Source: Anaeramoeba flamelloides
Taxonomy: Eukaryota > Metamonada > Anaeramoebidae
DNA length: 64,000 nt
NCBI GenBank assembly: GCA_027625915.1
Contig: JANTQA010000023.1
Location: 9,548,001-9,612,000, forward strand
Reading direction: 5' to 3'
Shown: positions 12,501 to 60,123 of the stretch, piece after piece
How positions within the stretch are numbered: the stretch's first letter is position 1
Layout of the letters: each line of letters opens with the position of its first letter
The notes under the pieces: model-generated
What the model saw: the letters and a program-made list of their open reading frames with translations, nothing else
Databases searched by the model: none
What the model was told of the DNA's origin: nothing
Made by a program: the position numbers and the translations under genes

Positions 12501-15500
12501 ATTAAACAAAAATTAGAATGTATTGGGATCTATCCTGATTTTATACTCTGTGAGTGTTGAAATGCGATATATTAATAAATAAAAATCATTTAAAAGGATT
12601 CTCAATTGAAGGATATGAAAAATATAGCAAATTTTCGTATTTTAGAGGGTTGTGAATGAAAAGATTTATTGCTCAAAAACTTTTTGAAATTTCCAAGCAA
12701 AAGAAGGCAAATTGAAAAGAAATTGATGATTGCCTCTTACGAATCTACTTAATATTCAAGTATATTTCTGCAATTTTCCTAAACTCCATAATATTGCAAG
12801 ATGGGTTGGATGGCTAGATTCGTCAGTGAGTTTTAATTTACAAACCTTTTCAAGGTAAATTTCGAATTTGAATCGGAAGAAAATGGTTTTTCCATTCTAA
12901 AAAATATTGAAAAAATAACCTAAATTTTAAAATTTTAGAAAGATTTCTTGACTCAGCATTTTTTTAAAGTCAACAGATGTGTTGCTAGTCTTAAAATTAA
13001 TATTTGCATGCCATAAAATTTGGATAACCTATAAATCAGATACATGCAAAAAGTGTAAAATCCAAAAAATACACAAAAAGTTATCAAAAACTCTATAAAA
13101 TGGTTTTTTTTATGTGTGAAAGGTGTGTTTTTTGTAAAATTGGAAAAAGATTTTTTCGGCAAAAAAAAGACAATAAATACTGTTATTTTCCAATTAATAA
13201 ATGAAAATTTTTATTTCAAGTTTTCAAATTTCTTCTGAATTATTAAGAAAAAAACACAAATATCAAAAAAATCGATTAGTAATGGCATTTCTGGTGATTT
13301 CGGTAAGCTTTGTTATTGAAGTTTGGGATAAAAATATAATTATGGATAATTCGTTTTGGAGCAGTAATTAAAATAAAGAATTAAAATGATTTAGGCTTGG
13401 TTTTTATATTAGACTACACTATGTCTTCTACTCCGAGAGCTCCTTCTCACTTTCAATTTTCTGGTGAGCTGTAAGAAGGGTATTTGTTTGTGAGAAGGAT
13501 CGCCTTTTTCTAGGCACGCCCATAGTTGCTTTCCATGAAATGCGTAAATAAAAAAATGAATTTTACATCCACAAAACATCATAAGCCCACTTGGAAATTG
13601 TGTATACTCCTTAAACCCTTAAATCAAGCACTTATTCTGTAATTTAGAAAATTTCGTACTTTAAACACACGAAGAAAATCTTCTAAATCACCTTCTTTTT
13701 GACGAGGAAGCGATTTAATTTAATAAACTTTAATCTTTTTTCGCTTTAATCCAAATCATAATGAAATTTAATGGCCAATTTATTCACACAAAGTAAGCTC
13801 CTCACTAAAAAGAAAAGTTATTTACTCGCTTTGTGTATCATTTTTTTGGACATGGTTTGCCTGTCCCCGCCTTGAATAGATTTGATAAATGGTTGTGGAA
13901 ATCGAATGTGAGTTGCAATGAATTTATTATTACCTTACTGGTATTTGAATTTCAAATGAAATCAACTATTGCTCTCAACCTTTCATCTTTAAGTTTTGGT
14001 TTTTCTCTTTGAGTTGCTATTTTAAACCAAAGAAAATGTCACAATTTCGAATATTGCCAAAGGGTTTCTTCAAATATACGAAAAAGATTTAATTTATTAC
14101 ATTGTCTTAAAGATTAAAACAAGTTCCTGAAGCCAAAAGTAATACTGATAAATTGCAATTTATTTTTGGAAATTTTTACTTGATTTTCCTTTTTGAAATT
14201 TTTATGCTCAACCTTGAATAAAGCATTTTTTGAAGTCAAGTGTTAAGAAACTCTGTAAAATTAGTTGTTCTTCAAAATACTCTTTGTCAGGTACTGTTTG
14301 ATAAGAAACAGTTCATAGATTTGTTCAAATGGAAAATTGAACTAAAAATTTTTTGAAATTTACGAGAATTTATCAATAGAACTGAAATTTTTTTCCCTTA
14401 AAAAATTCAATTACCCTTAAAGTAAAAGCATTTGACGCAAACAAGACCAACAAAACCAGGGTATTCTTCTATTAGGTTTCTATTTGTCTTGTTTCCATTC
14501 TGAAGTTTAATTTTTTTTTTTTTTCTTTTTTATTTTTTGTCACACAGATCTCTGAGAGAAACAAATGAAAGATTAAATTCGTCTTTTTATAATAAACACT
14601 ATATTTTTATTAAAATCCCTTCATCAAATAGATTTGTGATATTTGCTTGAAAAAAAAAAAGTATCAATCTTTTTTGGTTGACTGAAAAAAAGAAAAAAAA
14701 TAATAACACAAAAAATTCAAACAAAAACACATACTTTTTGTAAAGAGTTATTTTTGTCATAACGCTGAAGAATGTTCAAAAAATCTCTGAGAGGCTTTGA
14801 ATTCTGCGAAAATCTTTGCTTAATTTTGTTGACATAATCAATCATTTTGTTTTCATTTAAGGCTATCCCATCTTTCTGAGAAGAACGGAACTGATCAGAC
14901 GGCGGCAGAAATATATTGAATTTTAAAACCAAGTCATAGTTCCCTTGAAACATTGTCTTAATTTTGGTAACCATTATTTTTGTTGGGATTTTTTCATCTT
15001 TAAAATCCCTCATTAATTCCTTAAATTTTGAAAAATTTTCTGGTTGATTCTTAAAGTACCTATAAATAAATAAACGTGTGTAGGCGGGGTAGAACCAAAC
15101 AAGAAAAATGAATGAAAAATTGTAACAAAAAAAAAAAAAAAAAAAAACAATTTATGGTTTGTTTGTAATTAAATAAATATTTGCTTCTTTGTCCAAAGAA
15201 AAACTTTCAAAACTTACTTTTTAACTTGACCAAAATATTCAATTGCTTGATTTAGCTCTTCTTCTTTAGATTTTTTTAAAATTGAATTCTCATTGATGTT
15301 CAGGCTCATGTTCATGTTCATGTTTGTGTTCGTGTTCAGGCTCATATTCATATTCACGTTTGGGATTTCTAGTGGGATTTGAGAATTTAGTGGAAGAATT
15401 GTTGGGTAATTGTACATTGGAAGAAAAGGGGTGGAGTTTTGGTAAGGATCAAATTGTGGGTTTTGATGAAAATTTGGAAAAGATAAATATTGTGGTATTT

Positions 15501-34292: not shown

Positions 34293-35226
34293 TTAGTCTT
34301 CTTCTTCTTCCTTCTTATTTCCTCTCATTATGTTTAATTTTCTTTTTAATCTACCTGGTCTTCCGCCACCAAATGGGCTTTTTGAAGAAAATCCGATATG
34401 TTTTTGTGATTCAATTTTGACCATGAAAGATGGCACATTGACCAATTGGCTTCCGACAGAGATGTGTCTTTGTTTAATGAGTACCCTTGCGTGGTGAATG
34501 GATCTTGCTAAGCCTGATTTGTATACTTGGGTTTGTAATCTTCGATCGAGAAAATCATCAATGGTAAGTGTCAAGACATATTCAAGTCTTTGTTTCTGTT
34601 CGTCGAGGATTCCAAGATTTGTTAACCTTCTTAAAAGTGCTGCACCTTCAAAGATTCTTCTTGGATCTTTTTATTTTTTTTTGTTTTTCATTTTTATTAA
34701 AAGTGGGAAGAAAAGGAAGAAAAGTAGTATAAAAAAAAAAAAAAAAAAAAAAAAAGAAAAAATAAAATTGTATAAGGCATGGGTTGAAAAAACCAAGAAA
34801 GAAAGAAGGATAAAATTTGTGTTTTCCATTTATATTTTTTGTTATTATGAAGAAAGTAAAGGCCAATTAAATATAAAAAAAAGGTTGAACAAAAACAAAA
34901 ATAAAAAAAAAATAAAAGCAAGAAAAACAATGAAAAAAATTTTTTTTTTGATTTTGAAAGAATGGATGGAAAACAAGAAAAAAGATCTTTGTGTTTTTAC
35001 AAAAGGACAAATCTAAAAAAAAAAAAAAGAATAACAAACCATTTTCTTCAAGTGTAAGGAGGTTTCTTGCAGATTTTCTAATTTTAGCAAGTGTGTAATG
35101 AACTCTCCAGACTTCTCTTTTTGTTCGGAGTCCATATTTTCCTACAACTTTTAATTCGTGATCTAATCTTTCTTTTTGGTATGGACGACGTGGTGTCTTA
35201 AATGTTTTTGATTTTCTTCTTGACAT
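34293..35226 (-). CDS. RPS9: 40S ribosomal protein S9 (uS4), two exons
   Basis: Component of the small ribosomal subunit that binds the 18S rRNA 5' domain and helps decoding accuracy. Exons 35226-35040 and 34666-34293 (phase 1) give 561 nt, 186 aa. Seen: N-terminal [40 protein letters not shown], the junction [18 protein letters not shown], then the S4 RNA-binding domain with [18 protein letters not shown] and the [15 protein letters not shown] signature, followed by [13 protein letters not shown] and an acidic EEEED tail. Length and all family blocks are normal for eukaryotic uS4. The 5' exon donor is GTTTGT, weaker than the GTAAGT-type donors seen elsewhere. UAA stop. Confidence 0.97.
34667..35039 (-). 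other. RPS9 intron (373 bp)
   Basis: Donor GTTTGT and acceptor ATAAAAAG; it includes a T20-class tract. Removing it restores uS4 exactly at Asn-Asp-Pro-Arg-Arg. Confidence 0.9.
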
Positions 35227-38470: not shown

Positions 38471-41400
38471 ATGGGCTGTCTGCTTGGTAAAGAACAAAAT
38501 GATTTCACTGATAAAAACGGAATGATCGATAAAATGCTCCGTGACGATTTTACAAACACAGACAATGAACTTAAGCTTCTTCTTTTAGGTAACAACCAAA
38601 ACCCTTTTTTTTTTTTCTTCTCCTTATCACGATGAATTACATTTTTCTCGCTTGGCTTTCTTTTTGCTTATTTACAAATTAAAACCCTTTTTTGACACAT
38701 TAACAACTAAACAAAAAAAAACAAACCAACACTTTATCAAATAGGTCCTGGCGAAAGTGGCAAATCAACATTCCTAAAGCAAATCAAAATTATTCATAAA
38801 CAAGGTTATGAAAAAGAGGAAGAAAGAAAAAAGTTCAGCGAAGTTATCAGTTGCAACATTCTCCATTCAATCCAGTCACTGATAGAGGCATCTATCAATT
38901 TAAAAATTGATTTTGATGAAGAAAACAAGGACTACATTACCCAATTGTCAAAACTAAATCCCATAACCTACGTTCTGAATGAAGATGATCTTGAGATGGT
39001 TCAGAGTGTCTGGAAAGATCAAGGGATACAAAGTGCTTACGAAAGAAGAAGTGAATTCCAGTTAATTGACTGTGCTAAAATGTAAGTATTTTTTTTATTG
39101 TTTTTTTTTGACTTGTATTTTCTGGAATGTTTTTGGCTTATTTCAACTTTTTTTTTTGAGCAATTAAAATTTTTTCTCTTTTTTCAAAAAATTCAATTCA
39201 ATGTTTTTCGACTCGAATAACCTTTCGAAAAAAAGCACCTTTGTTAATTTTATAATAAATTGAATAAAATTTTTCAAATTCTTTCTCAAAAAAGATACAG
39301 TTCTTCATAATTAAGATCATTTTATTTTATTTGACCGTTTCTTCCTGAAGATGGATTATTTGAAATTGTAACCTACAGGCAGAAATGAACATGCACAACA
39401 CCAAAGCACCTTTACTTGAACCCCATACTGGAGCTGATACCTGAACTCTGCCTTTTGACAAGAATTATTGATTTTTAAAACTAAATATATATTTCAAAAA
39501 TAACTTGTGGTTAGTGAGTCATTTGAAAAGAGTGTTCAAAAAAGTTTTCAAAATTGTCTATAAAACAGTGAACAAACTACAATAAACACTATTTTCAGGA
39601 TATTATGTGAAAATTTTGTTTTTGTGGAACTTTTTAAAAACAAATAAATGAGAATTTTCCAATTAATAAATGAATATTTTTATTTCAATTTCTCAAAATA
39701 GTCTTTCCTCACAATTGAAAAAGAAAAAACACAGCACCTTTACAAATCAATTAAAAATAATAATTGTCTCATAATTTTGGCTTTTCCGCTTATTGAAACT
39801 TGATGATAAAGTTTTATTTTGTTAAATTCGAATTTAATAGTTTTGAAAATTCATTTTTTTTTTTTTTTATTCCTTAGGTATTATTTAAATTATTTGAAAT
39901 TTTGTTTGCTTTTCTTGGTTCACCAGAGAAGATAAATAAAAAAAAAATTCTGTTAATAGGGAAAGCAATTTTCATTAAATTTTGGTTTAAATGAGGAAGA
40001 ATAACAATTTTAAATCGAAACAAAAAAATATATTATTGCCCTCTCTTTCCTTTTTTCGTGTTTTTAATAATTTTCATTTGTTATATATATATATTTATAT
40101 TAATGGAAAAATGCATCTTCAAATCTGAAGTTTTATTTCTTTAGTTTGATTTATTAAAACTTTTCTCAGAAACCCACCACAAATTTATAAAAAAACTTTT
40201 GAAAAACAATACATCATTTTTTTCACTTACGAAAGGTCATGTTTCAAATTGAAAATAAAATTAAAGTCAAAAAAATGCTACTATTAAGAGAATATTTTAT
40301 CATAATGAGAGAAAAATATATTTGAATGATAAATAGTCTTATTTCTGGTTCTTTGTATGAGGATATAACAAAAAATACATGCCTTCTTCTCACAGAAAGG
40401 TTCATCCCAATTCTTAAAAAAAAACATAGTATTACCTATTTAACGTTTTAAAAAATAAACTATTTTGAATCTAGAGGTTCGTTTTTTTTTTAATTTAAAA
40501 AAATACAAGAAAATTTAATAGTTTTTTTTATTTTCCTTATATTAAAGAAAAAACACAAGTTTTTTAGGTTTTTTCGGGTTTTCAGTTTATTAGGAAAATC
40601 GATTGACTTTAGAAAAAAATTTTTAAATTCTTTTTGATTAAATCCACTGTTAACCTTTCCATAATTCAAAAGAATAGAGTCAAAATATAAGATTTCACCC
40701 AATTCTTTTAAATTCTGGAAATGCGCCGTTAGTTTTTTTTTTTGGTTTTTGAAATTAAAAAAAAAACTCCTTGAGGTTTTCTTGATTTCGTGCATAATTA
40801 TTTTGAACTATAGAAACCATTTCTTAGTTTTTCTCAGTTTTTTTGTTTTATTTGAAAAAATTAATAGATTTTCTCTAGGTTTTTTTGAGTTTTCTATTTA
40901 TTTAGAAAATCAATAGATTTTCGTTAGGTTTATTTCTAAAGTAAAAAAAACCTAGAACACCCCATAAAATAAAATAGAAAACCCCAAAAAAACCTAGAAC
41001 ACTTCATAAATAAAACAAAAAATCTAAAAGACTAGAAAAGAGCTTTGTGTTTTTTTTTATTTCTCAAATCAAAAATAATAAAAAAAAAAAAAAAAGGCAC
41101 TCCACAACATCTTGCATTATACTACTTCACACAATGTCGCCATTCCCAGTTAAAAAGGAAAAATTCAAAAACAATTATAGAATCAACCAATATAACATGA
41201 ATAAAAAATAAGAGAAATAATAAACATCATACAAGAGTTTATATTCTACTTGATATGAAATACATTTTCAAATTATATCTTTATTACAAAAAAATAAATC
41301 TTAAAAAAATTTTTGGCTTATATGATAAAAAAAAGTCTCGTTTAAATTTTTGTTAAATTCATTCTCAATATAAAATGATTCATAATAAGATTTTTTACTT

Positions 41401-43562
41401 ATAAATTTCTTTATTCCAAATCAAATTTACATAGAAACAATTTTCTTAGTGTTTATTGGTATTTTCGAAGGTCTTTTTTTTTAAATTGAATTCTATATTA
41501 AAAAAAAGGGATCAAAAAAAGATAAAGAAAATTAAATGAAAATAATAAGAATGAAAAAGCAAAAAAAAAAAAAATAATTAGATGAGAAAAAAAGAAAAAA
41601 GAAAAAGAAAAAGTTAGAAAAAAGCAAAAAACAGAAAAAATCAAAATTTGACAAAATGATAAAAAATAATTTTTAGCTTAAAAATTGAAAGTTTGTGTTT
41701 TGAAAAAAATATTCATAAAAATTCATAAAATTTAAATATAAACCTTTGTTTATACTGGACTCAATGTAATAGGATGCTGCGGAGTTCGTAAATTTGATGT
41801 TTTGTTCTGAAAATCTAACCATTTTAGATCAAAAATAAACTATTTTTCAAAAATTTTGACTCACTTTATAATGTTAATGATTGTTTTTTTGAGGGTTTAT
41901 TCCAGTATTCTTAAAAAAAATATATTTTCAAATTTTTGGATCAAATTCATTTTTTCTATTTTTGCAAATTTTAGTTTTGTTTTTTAAAATTTTTGCTTTG
42001 CTTTTTCAAATTTTTTTTCTTTTGCTTGTTTTTTTTTCCCTTTTTTTTGCAAGATCATATGAAAAAAAAAAAATAATATCTTCCAAAATACAAATAATAA
42101 CTAACAAAATTTCGAATATGTAATGTCTTTTAAAATGATTTTAACTATTAGCAAAAAATCTTCTTGTTCAACTTTTTTTTAGTGAAAGTTCAGTAATAAA
42201 AAATTGGTAATGCTCTTTTCACAAATTGTTACTCACTTTTTTTTTCGTTTTTGATTTTATTTTTTTTTAATTTTTAAAATATCAGGTTTTTTTTTTATAT
42301 ATAATGACTTTAAAGTGAGTTACAAATCAGATTTAATTAATTGCTGTTCTTTAATACTAAAGGATATATGTATTTTTTTTCAATTTTATTATTTGAGATG
42401 AGTCACAATTTTTGAAATGGTGTTTAATTTATATACTTTTCCAAAGATAATTTAAATATTTTTGTTCAGAAAAATCAAATTATTGTTCGATTTATTTTTC
42501 ATCTAATGAGTATTTAGAGACTTTTTCTCCAAAATTTTAAAAGAATGTTTTAAATCTGAAAAATTCTTTCAATTATTTTGTAGAAGAATTATTTTGTAAA
42601 AAAAAAAAAATTTCCTTTAATATCAAATATTTTGGAAAAAGTACACAAGAAGCTAAAAAATTACAAAAAAGTATATTAAAAGTTATTTTTAATTAATTTT
42701 TATTAAAAAACACAAAATCATGATCTGAAAAATGAAAAAAAAAAGATAAAAAAAAAATGTTTTGATTTAAAAACAAAAATTTAATAAAAAAAATATTTTT
42801 TTAAAAAGTTGCAATTTTTTGTTTTTGTATTGAAATAATTGTAATAGAAAGAACTTTTCTTCTGTTTATTAATAAACTTGAAATTAATTGATTTTTTTTC
42901 TATTTGAAAAAAATATTATTGTTATATATTATTTAAATCTTTTAATTCAAATATTTTAAAGATTCCTTGATGATGCTGAGCGTATTTTAGATCCAGATTT
43001 TATTCCAACTGTTGAAGATATTATCCATTCACGTTCCAGGACAACCGGTATCTTTGATGTCGATTTCAATTATGATAATTTGAAATTCAGATTATGGGAT
43101 GTTGGTGGTCAAAGAAATGAAAGAAGAAAATGGATCCATTGCTTTCAAAGCGTAACAGCCGTGCTGTTTGTCACTTCATTAAATGAATACGACCAAAAGC
43201 TCTTCGAAGACGTCACTGTAAGCCGAATCAAAGAATCTTTGTTACTTTTTGATGAAATCTGTAATTCAAGGTGGTTTTCGGATACTGCAATCATCTTGTT
43301 TTTTAATAAAGATGATCTTTTTAGAGAAAAAATTAAAAAAGTAAATTTAAATGTTTGCTTTGAAGACTATGAAGGTGGGTGCGATTATCAGAATGCACTT
43401 GAATATATTCAAGACAAATACATTTCCTGTCTTGACAACGAATCCCAGCAAATTTATTCATACACTACCTGTGCAACTGATACAGATAATGTGCGTAAAG
43501 TTTTCCTTGCAGTGAAAGACACAATTTTAGAATCCCAAGCTAAAGATATGGGCTATGTTTAA
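38471..43562 (+). CDS. Heterotrimeric G-protein alpha subunit, three exons
   Basis: GTPase that relays signals from membrane receptors. Exons 38471-38588, 38745-39081 and 42962-43562 (phases 1 and 2) join to 1056 nt, 351 aa. Seen: MGCLLG start (Gly2 myristoylation and Cys3 palmitoylation are likely), P-loop GPGESGKST at 40-48, switch I SRTTGI with the ADP-ribosylatable Arg178, switch II DVGGQR at 198-203 with the catalytic Gln202, NKDD at 267-270 (the NKxD base-specificity motif) and TCAT at 321-324. The P-loop has Pro where Ala or Thr is commoner, a natural variant also found in some animal members. The C-terminus ends KDMGYV: the Cys at -4 that pertussis toxin modifies in Gi types is replaced by Met, so receptor choice is probably lineage-specific. 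All GTPase motifs are intact. Confidence 0.96.
38589..38744 (+). other. G-alpha intron 1 (156 bp)
   Basis: Donor GTAACA and acceptor ATCAAATAG; it falls inside the P-loop, between the bases of the Gly40 codon. Confidence 0.9.
40000..40330. repeat. Dispersed repeat, copy 2 (partner 11640-11960)
   Basis: Same ordered blocks as 11640-11960, including GCCCTCTCTTTCC, GTGTTTTTAATAAT and TTTCAAATTGAAAATAAAAT. Just upstream, TTTTCCAATTAATAAATGAA (about 39655) is also found at 13188, so the parent repeat was larger. Confidence 0.6.
40480..41090. repeat. Hairpin repeat cluster in G-alpha intron 2
   Basis: A type-A palindrome at about 40661-40725 (CCATAATTCAAAAGAATAG, centre, CCAATTCTTTTAAATTCTGG), surrounded by TTTATTTAGAAAATCAATAG units and two AAAACCTAGAACAC words. 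Non-coding; the minus-strand ORF 40490-40795 across it is a shadow. Confidence 0.55.
41380..42165. repeat. Foldback element FB4 in G-alpha intron 2
   Basis: The left arm (about 41388-41690) carries AATAAGATTTTTTACTTA, then TTTATTGGTATTTTCGAAGG and a purine tract. The right arm (about 41840-42165) is the diverged reverse complement. The right-arm sequence and its flank to about 42420 also match 62580-63200 in opposite orientation, and 18720-19000 in part. Confidence 0.6.
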
Positions 43563-51170: not shown

Positions 51171-51251
51171 TGCTAATGACAGGACTCGAACCTGCGCGGA
51201 TACTTCCACTGGGACTTAAATCCAGCGCCTTAACCACTCGGCCACATTAGC
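51171..51251 (-). tRNA. tRNA-Leu (anticodon UAA)
   Basis: 81 nt, no intron. The acceptor stem GCTAATG pairs exactly with CATTAGC, followed by discriminator A. D-arm TGGCCGAGTGGTTAAGGC is typical of class II tRNA-Leu. The anticodon arm CTGGA-TTTAAGT-CCCAG places TAA at 34-36, with an A31-C39 mismatch. A long variable arm (GTGGAAGTATCCGC) and T-arm GCAGGTTCGAACCTGT follow. It reads UUA, a codon expected to be heavily used in this AT-rich genome. Box A and box B promoters are inside the gene as usual. Confidence 0.95.
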
Positions 51252-53035: not shown

Positions 53036-56000
53036 ATGGATAAAGTGAAAAAGCAATATCAATTCAATCACTTGGGATCAAAGGAGTCCTTAACCAGAGC
53101 TACCAAATGCCTTGACTGTGTCTTTTCAATTATATCGCATCTTGATCGTGTAACATTATTTTCCCTATGTCTCTTTTTTTGTCGATCCAAGAACCAAATC
53201 CCAACTGCTGGTGGCAAATGTGTTTGGAGATCTGAAGTATCATTAAGGGTGCTCGTCAAATATTCCAAATTATCACACAAGAAATTTCTGGAGCAATTAC
53301 TATACATACTGTGCTGCCTGGGAAAGAAGTACACTCACCACTTGAGTCGTATACATTGGCTCCAACAGCAAACCCTTGGATTAGATGAGATGTATCAAAA
53401 ATATATTAACGAGATTTCTGCCATTATTGATTTTGATGGTATTGATCTCTATGATGTTGGTAATTTAGTTTTCAGCCGAAGAGATCGAAGCACAAGTTGC
53501 CAAATCAAAACACCCTCGCCTAAAAAAAGAAAGCAGTTGTTTTTTCTGTATGGCTGGACACTTTTCCTGTTATTAAGAGATTTTAAAAATAAAAAGATTT
53601 CCAAATCAAAGATTCAAAATTCTCAAAAAATTAAGTAAGAAAACAAAGATCAAAAAGGAAAAGAAAGGAAAAACAAAAATGAAAATAAAGAAAAAAACAA
53701 AAACAAAAATAATGAAAAAAACAAAAATCCAAAAACAGAAAAAAATAAAAATACAAATAATGATCAAAACAAAAACACAAATAAAGATCAAAACAAAAAT
53801 GAACAAGGAAAATTCAAATTAAAAAATGAAAATAATTTAAAGATAAAAGAACAGTCAGAGTTAATTAATGCAGTTTTGATTTTAATCAAAAGGAACTTTC
53901 CTAAACAAATAAAAAATCAAAAGAAAAAAATTAAAATCTCTCTGGACAACGAAACAAAATTTTTTTTTTCTTCTTATTTGAGAGGTTTGATCGAGAATAA
54001 TCTGATAATTACCAAAAAAAGGAAAAAATATGAAAAATATAATAATCAATTTGAATGCCCTTCTGCAAACCAGAGAATATTAAATTTTGGAAATGAAAAC
54101 AAAAACCAGAAATTCCAAAAACAACAAATGGAACCTGAACCCTAACCTCAACTTTGGGCTGAACATGAACAGAAACAGCGACAGGGACAGAGACATGAGC
54201 TGGAAATGGAAATGGAGACGGAAAGGAAAACAAAAATGGAAACGGAAATGGAAAAGAAAAACATGATCAATTCATTACCTATGCTTAATTTAGGTTTAGA
54301 GAGAGATTTTATCAACGAGAATGAAATGTTTGACAGTGAGCACGATGGAAAAGAAAAGAAAAAAGAGATCGAAAAAGGGGAAGAGAGAAGGGAAAAAAAG
54401 AATTTTATTTATTCTGGAATTTTTGAGAAAAATTTATCACAAAATTTTATGAGGATTTCAAGAGAATACGAAACACTTATAGGTGTTGATGATCTGTTTG
54501 ATAATCGAATTTTTTTGAAAAATAAAGATAAATATAATAAAAATAAAATTGTAAGGAGAAAAAAAGTCACAAAAAGAAAAGAAAAAGAGAAATCGAAAAA
54601 AGGAAAGAAAACCAGAAAGAATAGCAATATAAAAATCGAGAATTTTAAAAACAAAATGAAAATTATAAACAAAAGGAAAAGCAAAGTCAAAGACAATACC
54701 AAAAGTAAAAAAAGGGAAAGAGAAAAAGGAGAGAGAAAAGAAAAAGGGAAGGGAAAGGGAAAGGGAAAGGGAAAAGGAAAAGGAAAAGAAAAAAATCGAA
54801 AAAAAGAAAAAGCATTAAAAAAGAAAAGAAAATTAAATAGCCAGACTCCCTTAAAAAAATTCAAAATGAATAACCAATATTTGTCAACACCAAAAAATCC
54901 GTTTAAAAAAAAAAAAACATTTAGCAATGCCAAAAATAAATAACAAACTCAAAAAACACGAATTCTATAACGTTCTTAACACACTTCCAGAACAAATACC
55001 CCCCGAATTAATTAATTATTTTAAAAAATTTAATAATATTAGTGTTTTGTTAAAATTAATTCAATTATTAAAAAATTCACTTCCAATTCCTTTTCATGAT
55101 AATATTTCAATCGATCATAATGATAGCAATACATCTACCAATGCCATTAATCTGGATAATACTTTAATCAATAATATTGAGATGGATAATAATAATACTA
55201 CTACTACTAATAATAATAGTGGTGAAATGATCTTCAAAAATGATCAAAAAGCAATAAATAATAGTTTCAATATCAATTATTCAAAATTAAATGAATATGA
55301 ACAAATAGTATTAAAACTTTTTTGGTATGCTTTGGTGCAAATTATTTCTAAAGAAAAAAAACAAGAAACAAAAGAAAACAAATCACCCAACGTAAGTGAC
55401 AACCAAAATGAAAGCACCATGAATGCTAAAGTGCAAGACACATCAAACAAAAGAAAAAAATCAAAATTTTCAATTCAAACTATTTTTTATCCATTTTTAG
55501 AAAATGAAGAATTTTATCAAACTTTAATTTGCTGTTGTTTTGAAATTGTAATTTATCAAAGCAAAAATAAAAAATTACAATTCCCAGCAATATTAAAATT
55601 ATTTAATTTATCTTGCTTTGAATTTTCAAAAATTTTACCGGTAGTCATCCCATCTTTTCAAATCCTCCCAAATCTTCTTATTAATCATTTAATTGAAATT
55701 CAAACGGATATTATTTCAAAACATATTTGGGAAAAGGATTCAAAATTTTTGCAAATCTTTAAAAAAATACCAGATGAAAATAAAATTGAACTGATCCGCA
55801 ATTTAACAGCAGATTTACCGAAAATTTCCGATGGGTTTGCAAATATTCTATACTCCCATCTAAATATAGCCAAAGAAAGGATCCAATTACTGTTGCAAAA
55901 GCTAAACTATGGTAATGATAATGTCATCTTTTATCAAATATGGAACACTTATTTATATCTATTATTGTAAAAATATGATTTAATACAAAACTCCCAGCTT

Positions 56001-56675
56001 GATATAAACCACATTTGCTGCGTATTGATCATATTAAAAACGATGAACAAAAGTTTTAATAATTCTTTGGATCAAATTATATCACATTATAAGAAAATGG
56101 ATTGGAAATTAGTTAATTTTTCTTTTATTAATAACAAAAATAACAATTATGATAATGATAATGATCTTGGTGGTGTTGATAATGACAATGACAATGACAA
56201 CGATAATGATGATGATAATGATGATGATGATTATAATGATGATCAGAAAATGGAAAAAAAAAAAAAAAAACAAATTTCTTTGATGTAAATCATTTTTTTA
56301 ATGAGACATTTTACCCTTCAATGTCTAACCATGTTTTTTTTTGTGCAATGATGAGACAATAAGTTTGCTTAAAGAAAAAAATAATGATAATAGAACATGC
56401 TCAAATGTTCGAAGTAATTCTAAAAACGATTCCATTAATTTTAATTTATCTTCAAAATCAAAATTTTATTATAAACGGAGAAGGAAAAATAACACACTTT
56501 CATAATCAACAAGAGCTGCACTTTTCCAAGAAGACGAAGAAAATACCAATGACAATGAATTCCAAAATGCCATGAATTTACTTCAGATGATGATAATGAA
56601 GATGACAATGACGACAATATTGATTTTAGTCTTGTCAACTCACCTATTGACGTCTATGATAATTTTTTCAAATAG
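53036..56675 (+). pseudogene. Retinoblastoma (RB)-family gene, disrupted by in-frame TAA codons and frame changes
   Basis: RB proteins repress E2F-driven S-phase genes. Seen along one axis: the N-terminal cyclin-like domain (CRSKNQIPTAGGKC...SLRVLVKYSKLSHKKFLEQL, then YGWTLFLL), a linker block FFSSYLRGLIENNLI, a charged K/E region, pocket A (VLNTLPEQIPPELINYF; FYQTLICCCFEIVIYQ; FPAILKLF; NHLIEIQTDIISKHIW), pocket B (YLYLLL-stop-KYDLIQNSQLDI-NHICCVLI), then VNHFFNETFYPSMSNHVF and an acidic tail ending in TAG at 56673. Reading breaks: TAA at 53636, 54143 and 55968 with the same frame continuing after each, a frame change at an A13 tract (54905-54917), another at an A17 tract (56254-56270), a probable one at T9 (56334-56342), a further TAA at 56503, and a last shift near 56570. 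Homology is firm; whether this is a pseudogene, sequencing error or recoding is open. Confidence 0.8.
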
Positions 56676-59093
56676 CCCTTATAATTTAATTTTTTTATAA
56701 TAATATATTATCCATTTATTAATTCTTTATTTTATTATTCTCAAAAAAATTATTATTAAAGAAAAATAGCATTTCAATTTTTTTTTGGAAAAATTTTGAA
56801 AATTAAATATTTTTCCTATTTGAAGATTGATATTAAAAAAAAGTACCAGCAAAACTAAAAAGAATTCAGAAACTAGCCTCAAGTTAAATATAATTAAGCT
56901 ATCATGATTTTCGAATTTTACTAAGAATAAATTTAAAATATGTAACCTTCCCGTTTTAGAAACTGTTTTGTTTTAGTAAAGTTAAAATTGAACACCAATA
57001 ACAAATTCTTATAATAGATTCAGTCTTTCGATTTACAATCTGAACTAAAAGAAAAGAAAACATGGGCAAATATTCCAAAAAGAGGGAGATTAAAAAAAAA
57101 AAAAAAAACATGAAAAAATACAAAGTTGGCAATTTTCATGACTTCAAACATAAAAAAGCAAATGTGGACAATCTAGAATCAATTTTTTGATCTCTTCCAA
57201 AAAAAAACTGATTCTTTATTTAAAATACCATGGAAATTGTACTTGAAATTATAAATTTTTTTTACAGAGAAAACTCAAGAATACCCATTCATAAATTAAC
57301 TTGTATTCAAAAGACTAAATTTAAAAAATGTAATTATGATTTTAATAATTTTTTTTTTTTTATGGTAAAAGAAGAAATATCTTCGAATTATATAGTTTAG
57401 TTGAAATTTTTATTTCATCTTTGATTTCAATCAGTTCCTTTTACTGTAGCCATATTTCTTGTTTGATTATCAACAAAAAGGTTTGTTTCAAATACACATC
57501 TACTAGGGTCTTTTTTTTTTTTTTTTTTTCTTCAATGATAAATTTCAAACATTCCTATCTAAACATTTCAAGATTCAAAAAAAAATTATTAAAACCTACA
57601 ATTTAATCAAAAAAATGTACAATATTATTGAAAAATTCGAGATTCAACTCTAATTTATTTGATTTATTTTTACAACTAGAACAATGAACGATATTTTGAT
57701 TTGAAAGTTTCAATATCTCATGCCAGGTATAAAATTTTTAACAGAAATGTTCTCACATTTAAAGATCTAATTTCAAAATATGAATATTCTTAAATTTTGG
57801 TTTAATTGGAAATTTTAAATTTTATTTACATTTGAAGAATTAATTTAATTTTGTGGTTTGGTTTTTGTTTTAAAATAGATGGGGAAATTCTATAAAAAAA
57901 TAATAAAACAAAAGATCTAATAAATTTTTTTTTAAAGAAAATGATTTTTCATTTTTTTACTATTGACCATTTTTTTATAGAAGAATTATATTTTTTATGA
58001 ATTGAAAAAAGTGATCCTTAAGTTAAAAATTTATCTCTTTAGTTGGATTTTTTAAATGATTCAAATTGAACCTTCCAACTCAAACAACACAATATATATT
58101 TTCTAGTAAATATTATTTCAAATCATCAATAAAAGTGCAGTAAATAACTTATTTTATTATGAGACATTTTTGGAACCTTAATAATTAGATTGTAATGATT
58201 ATGAAGTTTAATAAAGATAATCACTTATTTTCTAATATTCATGATTTATATACTACCACCTTCTTGTGAAATTTGTAATTATTATGTTTAACAGATTTAT
58301 ACTGATGATTAAATAATCCATTCGAAAAGGTTAAAATCTGTGTGTCAAAATTAAATCAATGCTTCTTTTTTTTATCGAAGAATCACACATTAAATAATCA
58401 ATCAAACTAACAATAAACTATATTCAAATATCAGATTGGTTTCTTAAAGTTCTATTATTAAAAAATAAATTGTAAAAATGAATGAATAAGGTCAGATTAT
58501 CTTAAAAAATAGAGATATTGTTTTTAGATAATTTGATCATAAAAAAATTTACCAAAATAGAAAAAATTGAGAAAATTACAAAAAATTATTTCCAAATTAT
58601 TTTCCTAATTTAAAATATTCTCAAAATCTCAACGAGTTAACTTTCAAAATTGACTTGACATTTTGTATACCGTTGGAAAGTTAGTTTGGTGTTGTTCTTC
58701 AAGAAGAAGAAAAAAGGAAACAGTTTATATTCTAAAACTTGGTATTCAAACTCTTTTACTTGTATTCTTTGATAATTGTCAAGAACAATGTTGATGAGTA
58801 AAAGAGAAATATTCAACAAAGCGTATCTCACAAAAACACTGTTTTATTTTTTAACTAACAACAGTATTGAGTAAAGATAGGTTTTGGATCATTGAGTTGT
58901 TACATAGTTGAAAATCAGATAAGTATAAGATAAGGTTTTTCCTAATTTGAATACTTGGATTGGACTTTATGTACAGAAAAAAACTCACTCTATATTCTTT
59001 CAAATATTGGATTAATTTCCTTCTTACTGAAATGAAAAACATACACAACTATTTTTTCATTTTTTTTTGCTTTCAACTCTCAAAATTTAATAA
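56676..59093. other. Intergenic, about 2.4 kb
   Basis: No recognisable gene. A dispersed repeat at about 58400-58640 matches 3640-3920 (TTTCTTAAAGTTCTA(C/T)TAT word and following TTTCCTAATTTAAA-like blocks). The last part must hold the RPS5 promoter. Confidence 0.5.
58400..58640. repeat. Dispersed repeat, partner at 3640-3920
   Basis: Shared ordered words: CAATAAAC, GTTTCTTAAAGTTCTA, ATTGTAAAAATGAA-like, TTCCTAATTTAAA and AATATT...AAA(A/G)AT(C/T)T. Same orientation, diverged. Confidence 0.5.
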
Positions 59094-60123
59094 ATGACCC
59101 AATACGAAGAACAAGAATCCGAAACACAAAAAGAACCAGAAATTGAATTGGAATCAGCAACAGAGATTAAACTTTTTGGTAAATGGAGTTATGAAGGACT
59201 TAAGGTATTACGATCTACTTTTTCTTTTTTTTTTTTTAATGTGCTTTTCTTTTTTGAAAAACTAAAAAAAATTCAAAACAAAATTATTTATTTTCTTTTT
59301 TGTTATGTAATCTAAGGTATCCGATATGTCTCTCGAAGATCAAATGTCATGGAAGCCAAACTCAAGAAGATTTTTAACTCACTCTTCTGGAAGATGGCAA
59401 GTAAAACCATTCAGAAAGATCAAGTGTCCAATTGTCGAAAGGTTTGTGTGTTCTTTAATGATGCACGGAAGGAATGCTGGTAAAAAAATGATGGCCATCA
59501 GAATCCTTAAACACACTTTTGAAATTATCAATTTAATCACAGAAGAAAACCCAATCCAAGTCTTACTCGATGCAATTACAAATTCAGGCCCACGTGAAGA
59601 TACCACCCGTGTTGGAAAAGGTGGCGGTGCAAGAAGACAAGCTGTCGATGTCTCTCCTTTAAGAAGAGTAAATATCGGAATTTATTATCTCTGTTTTGGT
59701 GTAAGTTTCCTTTCAGTTTAATTTCTTTCTTTTTTTTTCTTTTTTTTTTATTTATTTTCTTTTTTTTATGTTATTTTTGCTTTCTTAAAAAAATTTTTTT
59801 TTTATAATACTTTTGTTCTTTTCTTTTTTTTTATTCGTTACATCCACAAATATTCGTTGACTAAATCAACATACCAACTTTGTGTCTATTTTTTTTTTCT
59901 TTTTTTTCTAAAAAATCTTTCTTCAACATACCACAACCAAACACTAAATAAACATATTATGCTATTAATCAACTTTTAGGCAAGAAAATCTGCCTTTAGA
60001 AACACCAAATCAATTTCTGAATGTTTAGCTGATGAATTAATTAATGCAGCTAAAGGAAATTCAACAAGTTTTGCAGTTAAAAAGAAAGATGAAATTGAAA
60101 GAGTTGCTAGGAGTAATAGATAA
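59094..60123 (+). CDS. RPS5: 40S ribosomal protein S5 (uS7), three exons
   Basis: Small-subunit head protein that contacts the E-site tRNA and 18S rRNA. Exons 59094-59204, 59317-59700 and 59980-60123 (all phase 0) give 639 nt, 212 aa. Seen: an acidic lineage-specific N-terminus, [59 protein letters not shown], the uS7 signature [16 protein letters not shown], then [41 protein letters not shown] and the canonical end IERVARSNR with a UAA stop. One small oddity is [11 protein letters not shown], with Gly residues where most eukaryotes have Ala-Gly-Thr-Val. Splice sites are GTATTA, GTAAGT and AG acceptors with T-rich tracts. Confidence 0.97.
59205..59316 (+). other. RPS5 intron 1 (112 bp)
   Basis: Donor GTATTA, acceptor TAATCTAAG. 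Phase 0 on both sides. Confidence 0.85.
59701..59979 (+). other. RPS5 intron 2 (279 bp)
   Basis: Donor GTAAGT, acceptor CAACTTTTAG, with a long T-rich body. Phase 0. Confidence 0.9.

Follow-up and report, generated by a model that had tools for sequence, protein, structure and literature searches.

Why should a gene of the retinoblastoma (RB) family be interrupted by four stop codons, every one of them TAA, and then end in TAG? This is the question raised by positions 53036-56675 of the stretch of Anaeramoeba flamelloides DNA that we analysed (64,000 nucleotides, hereafter the window). An initial description made without database searches, which we refer to as the sequence-only reading, offered three hypotheses for this arrangement: a recent pseudogene of a duplicated RB gene, an assembly or sequencing error, and readthrough or context-dependent decoding of UAA in this one gene. 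Our follow-up finds that a pseudogene fits best and assembly error second, while readthrough or context-dependent decoding of UAA finds no support. RB-family proteins are placed in the last eukaryotic common ancestor by a published study (PMC4862756), and a literature search for Anaeramoeba together with retinoblastoma returned nothing.

Identity and domain layout of the gene

In profile searches, pocket A matched PF01858 (RB_A) with an E-value of 1.7e-20 and 74.2 bits (cut-off 25), covering profile positions 104-194 of 196. With the TAA at 55968 read through, pocket B matched PF01857 (RB_B) with an E-value of 2.3e-7 and 31.3 bits (cut-off 26.9), covering profile positions 10-116 of 144. Judged from these two matches, the gene is a member of the RB family. 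The best solved-structure match of the pocket region is the pocket of p107 (4yoo; E 5.2e-17). The homology that the sequence-only reading had traced from the N-terminal domain through both pockets is thus borne out for pockets A and B and is weaker at the N terminus, where the match of PF11934 to the first 200 residues (E 3.8e-5) reached 23.8 bits, under the 26.3-bit cut-off. This match vanished when the 628-residue read-through of 53036-54919 was searched, a query that returned no Pfam family at E <= 10, and the same first 200 residues matched no solved structure at E <= 10.

The order of pocket A followed by pocket B is that of RB1, p107/RBL1 and p130/RBL2, the upstream PF11934 match being sub-threshold here. 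The locus differs from RB-family pocket proteins in possessing long Lys/Asn/Glu-rich inserts, and in its reading frame, which is not intact: TAAs interrupt it four times, and the frame itself changes four times.

Stops and frame changes

The four TAAs and the final TAG (56673-56675) are all present in the sequence as first described (Table 1). The TAAs do not share a single frame, however, as had been supposed: they are spread over three frames, and four frame changes accompany them. The gene follows frame 1 and then frame 2, after which the tail is read in frame 1, then in frame 3, and finally in frame 2, where the TAG lies. Three of the frame-change intervals contain a long A or T run, and the fourth, 56559-56700, has no A/T run longer than 7. 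Between 53036 and 54904, frame 1 contains 2 stops, against 34 and 58 in the other frames; between 54918 and 56253, frame 2 contains 1, against 79 and 31.

Table 1. Coordinates of the RB-family locus and of the introns predicted within it
Feature	Positions	Strand	Basis or remark
RB N-terminal domain (PF11934-like), open segment, frame 1	53036-53635	+	PF11934 at residues 65-190, E 3.8e-5, below cut-off
TAA 1, frame 1, just past the PF11934 match, in Lys/Asn-rich insert	53636-53638	+	sequence
Remaining N-terminal region and Lys/Glu/Asn-rich linker, frame 1	53639-54904	+	one frame-1 stop (54143)
TAA 2, frame 1, within linker	54143-54145	+	sequence
Predicted intron 1 of P0001, probably not real	54705-54924	+	220 nt; 60.5% A, 11.8% T
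A13 run, inside frame 1 to frame 2 interval 54870-54943	54905-54917	+	frame analysis
RB pockets A and B, frame 2	54918-56253	+	PF01858, PF01857, p107 pocket 4yoo
Predicted intron 2 of P0001, probably not real	55967-56053	+	43.7% A, 27.6% T; removes conserved pocket-B sequence
TAA 3, frame 2, inside pocket B, in gap-free stretch	55968-55970	+	alignment; opposite His (p107) and Asn (RB1)
A17 run, inside frame 2 to frame 1 interval 56243-56288	56254-56270	+	frame analysis
T9 run, inside frame 1 to frame 3 interval 56329-56362	56334-56342	+	frame analysis
C-terminal tail assigned to frame 3, holds TAA 4	56343-56562	+	codon score, no homology support
TAA 4, frame 3	56503-56505	+	frame analysis
Acidic C-terminal end assigned to frame 2, ends in TAG	56563-56675	+	codon score and TAG 56673, no homology support

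When sliding windows were scored by codon usage, 12 of the 31 in the N-terminal half favoured frame 1, and 18 of the 23 in the pocket favoured frame 2. In the tail, frame 3 scored 6.7 across 56343-56562 (the other frames, -5.8 and -9.8), being unfavoured in 56343-56502 taken alone, and frame 2 scored 14.6 across 56575-56672 (the others, -0.7 and -10.4). The tail frames in Table 1 are those suggested by such scores: frame changes 2-4 and the TAA at 56503 are based on open frames and codon scores, outside any homology, and the TAA at 55968 is the one lesion anchored by homology on both sides.

The deposited protein and its introns

The NCBI record for an A. flamelloides retinoblastoma-associated protein rb-related (581 residues; here P0001) could be rebuilt without a single mismatch from three exons of the window (54236-54704, 54925-55966 and 56054-56288), joined across two predicted GT-AG introns, and P0001 is the deposited model of this same locus. 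From this exact correspondence we take the window to be nuclear DNA of A. flamelloides. Relative to the locus, the model begins downstream of the first two TAAs and lacks the N-terminal region; its introns avoid the TAA at 55968 and the change from frame 1 to frame 2, and it ends before the tail. That P0001, with its two introns, represents the real product is improbable, even though the model reproduces exactly and GT-AG introns exist in the A. flamelloides genome. Three introns in the window are fixed by protein continuity, those of uS4 (35039-34667), uS7 (59701-59979) and SIN3 (8249-8137); each has GT-AG borders, and their T content is 54-61%. The first predicted intron of P0001, rich in A and poor in T, is unlike these three, and the second deletes conserved sequence, because the pocket-B segment around the TAA at 55968 aligns without gaps to p107 and RB1. 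Together with the omission of the N-terminal region, these features argue against the deposited model, and both of its introns are probably artefacts of a gene prediction that skirts the lesions.

Introns outside the deposited model were considered as well. One that removes the TAA at 55968 was rejected on account of the gap-free pocket-B homology surrounding this codon. The TAA at 53636 overlaps GTAAGA, which would make a good splice donor, but the sequence that follows (53639-53852; 71% A, 11% T) differs in composition from the three homology-fixed introns and translates as a Lys/Asn-rich insert. An intron at this position is consequently disfavoured, and introns at 53636, at 54143 or in the tail are left with some residual plausibility.

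Elsewhere in the window, uS4 (34293-35225, minus strand) and uS7 (59326-60123, plus strand) each possess one GT-AG intron, of 373 and 279 nt, respectively. Two G-alpha segments (38711-39082 and 42962-43562, plus strand) lie ~3.9 kb apart, and because profile positions 143-182 could not be placed in either, this gene is likely to contain at least one further exon, along with long introns. The first SIN3 exon that we identified (8936-8250, minus strand) is preceded, at a distance of ~5.8 kb, by a PAH-domain segment (14720-15151, minus strand), and the two probably belong to one gene with long introns.

Decoding of UAA

The use of TAA at all four interrupting stops and of TAG at the end is the observation that speaks for readthrough of UAA, or for its decoding as an amino acid, in the RB gene, a reading that we regard as scarcely credible. 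The pattern to which the sequence-only reading drew attention is real and also unremarkable. When six simple models were applied to the 1193 sense codons of the gene, the chance that four of four stops would be TAA was 0.11-0.19, as 58-66% of single-substitution stops are TAA. The codon AAA was the commonest or second commonest source of TAA, and the order of CAA, GAA and TTA varied by model. The four TAAs have no visible common context (AAG-TAA-GAA, CCC-TAA-CCT, TTG-TAA-AAA and TCA-TAA-TCA), and recoding of UAA would leave the frame changes unexplained. Nor is the residue aligned to the TAA at 55968 a Gln. The suggestion that Gln fits there, drawn from the motif LQNEYEL of animal RB, was one residue off, the Gln of RB1 aligning instead with the preceding Leu.

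TAA terminates all seven of the neighbouring genes that could be identified (SIN3, SURF6, Arpin, uS4, G-alpha, EF-1alpha and uS7), in keeping with what had been noticed at the outset for most of them. This argues against decoding of UAA in the RB gene, and on the same grounds we reject genome-wide reassignment of UAA, which the sequence-only reading had already disfavoured. The single tRNA gene in the window (51171-51251, minus strand) is a tRNA-Leu (anticodon TAA), a decoder of UUA rather than a suppressor of UAA. We also regard as highly unlikely a reading in which this locus is the only RB gene of the organism and has split into separately translated N-domain (ORF 53036-53638, 200 residues) and pocket-A (ORF 54927-55970, 347 residues) proteins, or in which programmed frameshifting and readthrough of UAA maintain its function.

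Assembly error and the comparison with neighbouring segments

The main rival to a pseudogene is an undamaged cellular gene whose stops and frame changes were introduced by assembly or polishing, an alternative that we judge unlikely, if clearly deserving of consideration. Homopolymers are a typical source of Nanopore error, and the A13, A17 and T9 runs sit in three of the four frame-change intervals. The published A. flamelloides assemblies are described in PMC11550330 as based on R9 Nanopore reads, with Racon, Medaka, five Pilon rounds and Illumina polishing, and the genome is A+T-rich with many duplicated genes. On the other hand, neither the four separate substitution-type TAAs nor the one frame change that lacks a long run is typical of homopolymer error, and in coding segments nearby, which had been selected as open, runs of this kind have remained in an open frame.

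This last contrast can be given in numbers. In the other segments, all 10 of the A/T runs of at least 9 nucleotides that were counted fall inside the open frame, one further run, a T21 in the PAH segment of SIN3, having been set aside as a possible intron edge; in the RB gene, three of four fall in a frame-change interval. The Fisher probability of this difference, for segments that were picked open, is 4/364 = 0.011, or 3/78 = 0.038 without the T9 of the tail (hand calculation). No internal stop interrupts the frame of any of twelve other open coding segments in the window, which total 8312 nt. Had the lesions been distributed at random over the RB gene and these twelve segments, all 8 would fall in the RB gene with a probability of 7e-5, the four TAAs alone with a probability of 0.009, and the five that precede the tail (the TAAs at 53636, 54143 and 55968, with the A13 and A17 frame changes; RB 3235 nt) with a probability of 0.0017 (hand calculation), a comparison that is biased by the choice of the twelve segments for being open.

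A probable pseudogene of recent origin

We propose that the locus is probably a recently inactivated copy, that is, a pseudogene, of an RB-family pocket-protein gene in A. flamelloides: RB-family homology is found here together with disabling lesions in the assembled sequence. The ancestral gene would have encoded a single protein of ~1200 residues, composed of an N-terminal RB domain, a long low-complexity linker, pockets A and B, and an acidic tail. Once selection was lost, some four substitutions to TAA would have accumulated in it, together with some four indels that change the frame; three of these indels would lie in long A/T runs or close to them. In P0001, the automatic gene model, the third TAA and the first frame change would then have been bypassed by means of two implausible introns. 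According to this proposal, the cell's own DNA would carry the lesions, and the RB copy would be non-functional and would have arisen by duplication. The decay would be recent, because apart from the TAAs and frame changes hardly any stop interrupts the frames; a count of four stops corresponds to roughly 1.3-2.7% neutral substitution, with Poisson limits of 0.3-7%. Our confidence in the pseudogene, good without being strong, is lowered by the location of the tail lesions outside homology, by the modest codon scores and by an N-terminal match that lies below its cut-off.

According to PMC11550330, the gene families of A. flamelloides are greatly expanded, each strain having more than 1100 genes for ribosomal proteins, and in view of this expansion surplus and decayed copies are to be expected. 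The passages on pseudogenes found in that paper deal with the bacterial symbionts. In a protein search for RB relatives, P0001 was the sole match among 7987 scored candidates, all of them proteins sharing exact words with the query within a length range. A second search, which was probably swamped by low-complexity words, gave none at E <= 0.1 among 7987 candidates, and one limited to the pocket, which sees only exact-word relatives within the length range, gave none at E <= 1 among 622.

With duplicated (unprocessed) eukaryotic pseudogenes, the RB copy shares the presence of stops and frame-changing indels in a still recognisable gene; it differs in that no intron is established here in 3.6 kb. 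Because of this lack of an established intron, the copy may instead have a processed origin, as a retrocopy. No poly-A tail is visible after 56675, and the direct repeats found are simple A-rich, GAT/GAC/AAT-type or AT-rich ones.

This interpretation has consequences for how the locus is to be read. What appeared to be gene-specific decoding of UAA is likely to be ordinary decay, and P0001 stands as a public record with probably artefactual introns and with conserved pocket-B sequence missing. If A. flamelloides possesses no intact RB gene, the decay of this copy would amount to the loss of RB in a protist with RB-bearing ancestors, which would be of interest for the evolution of the cell cycle.
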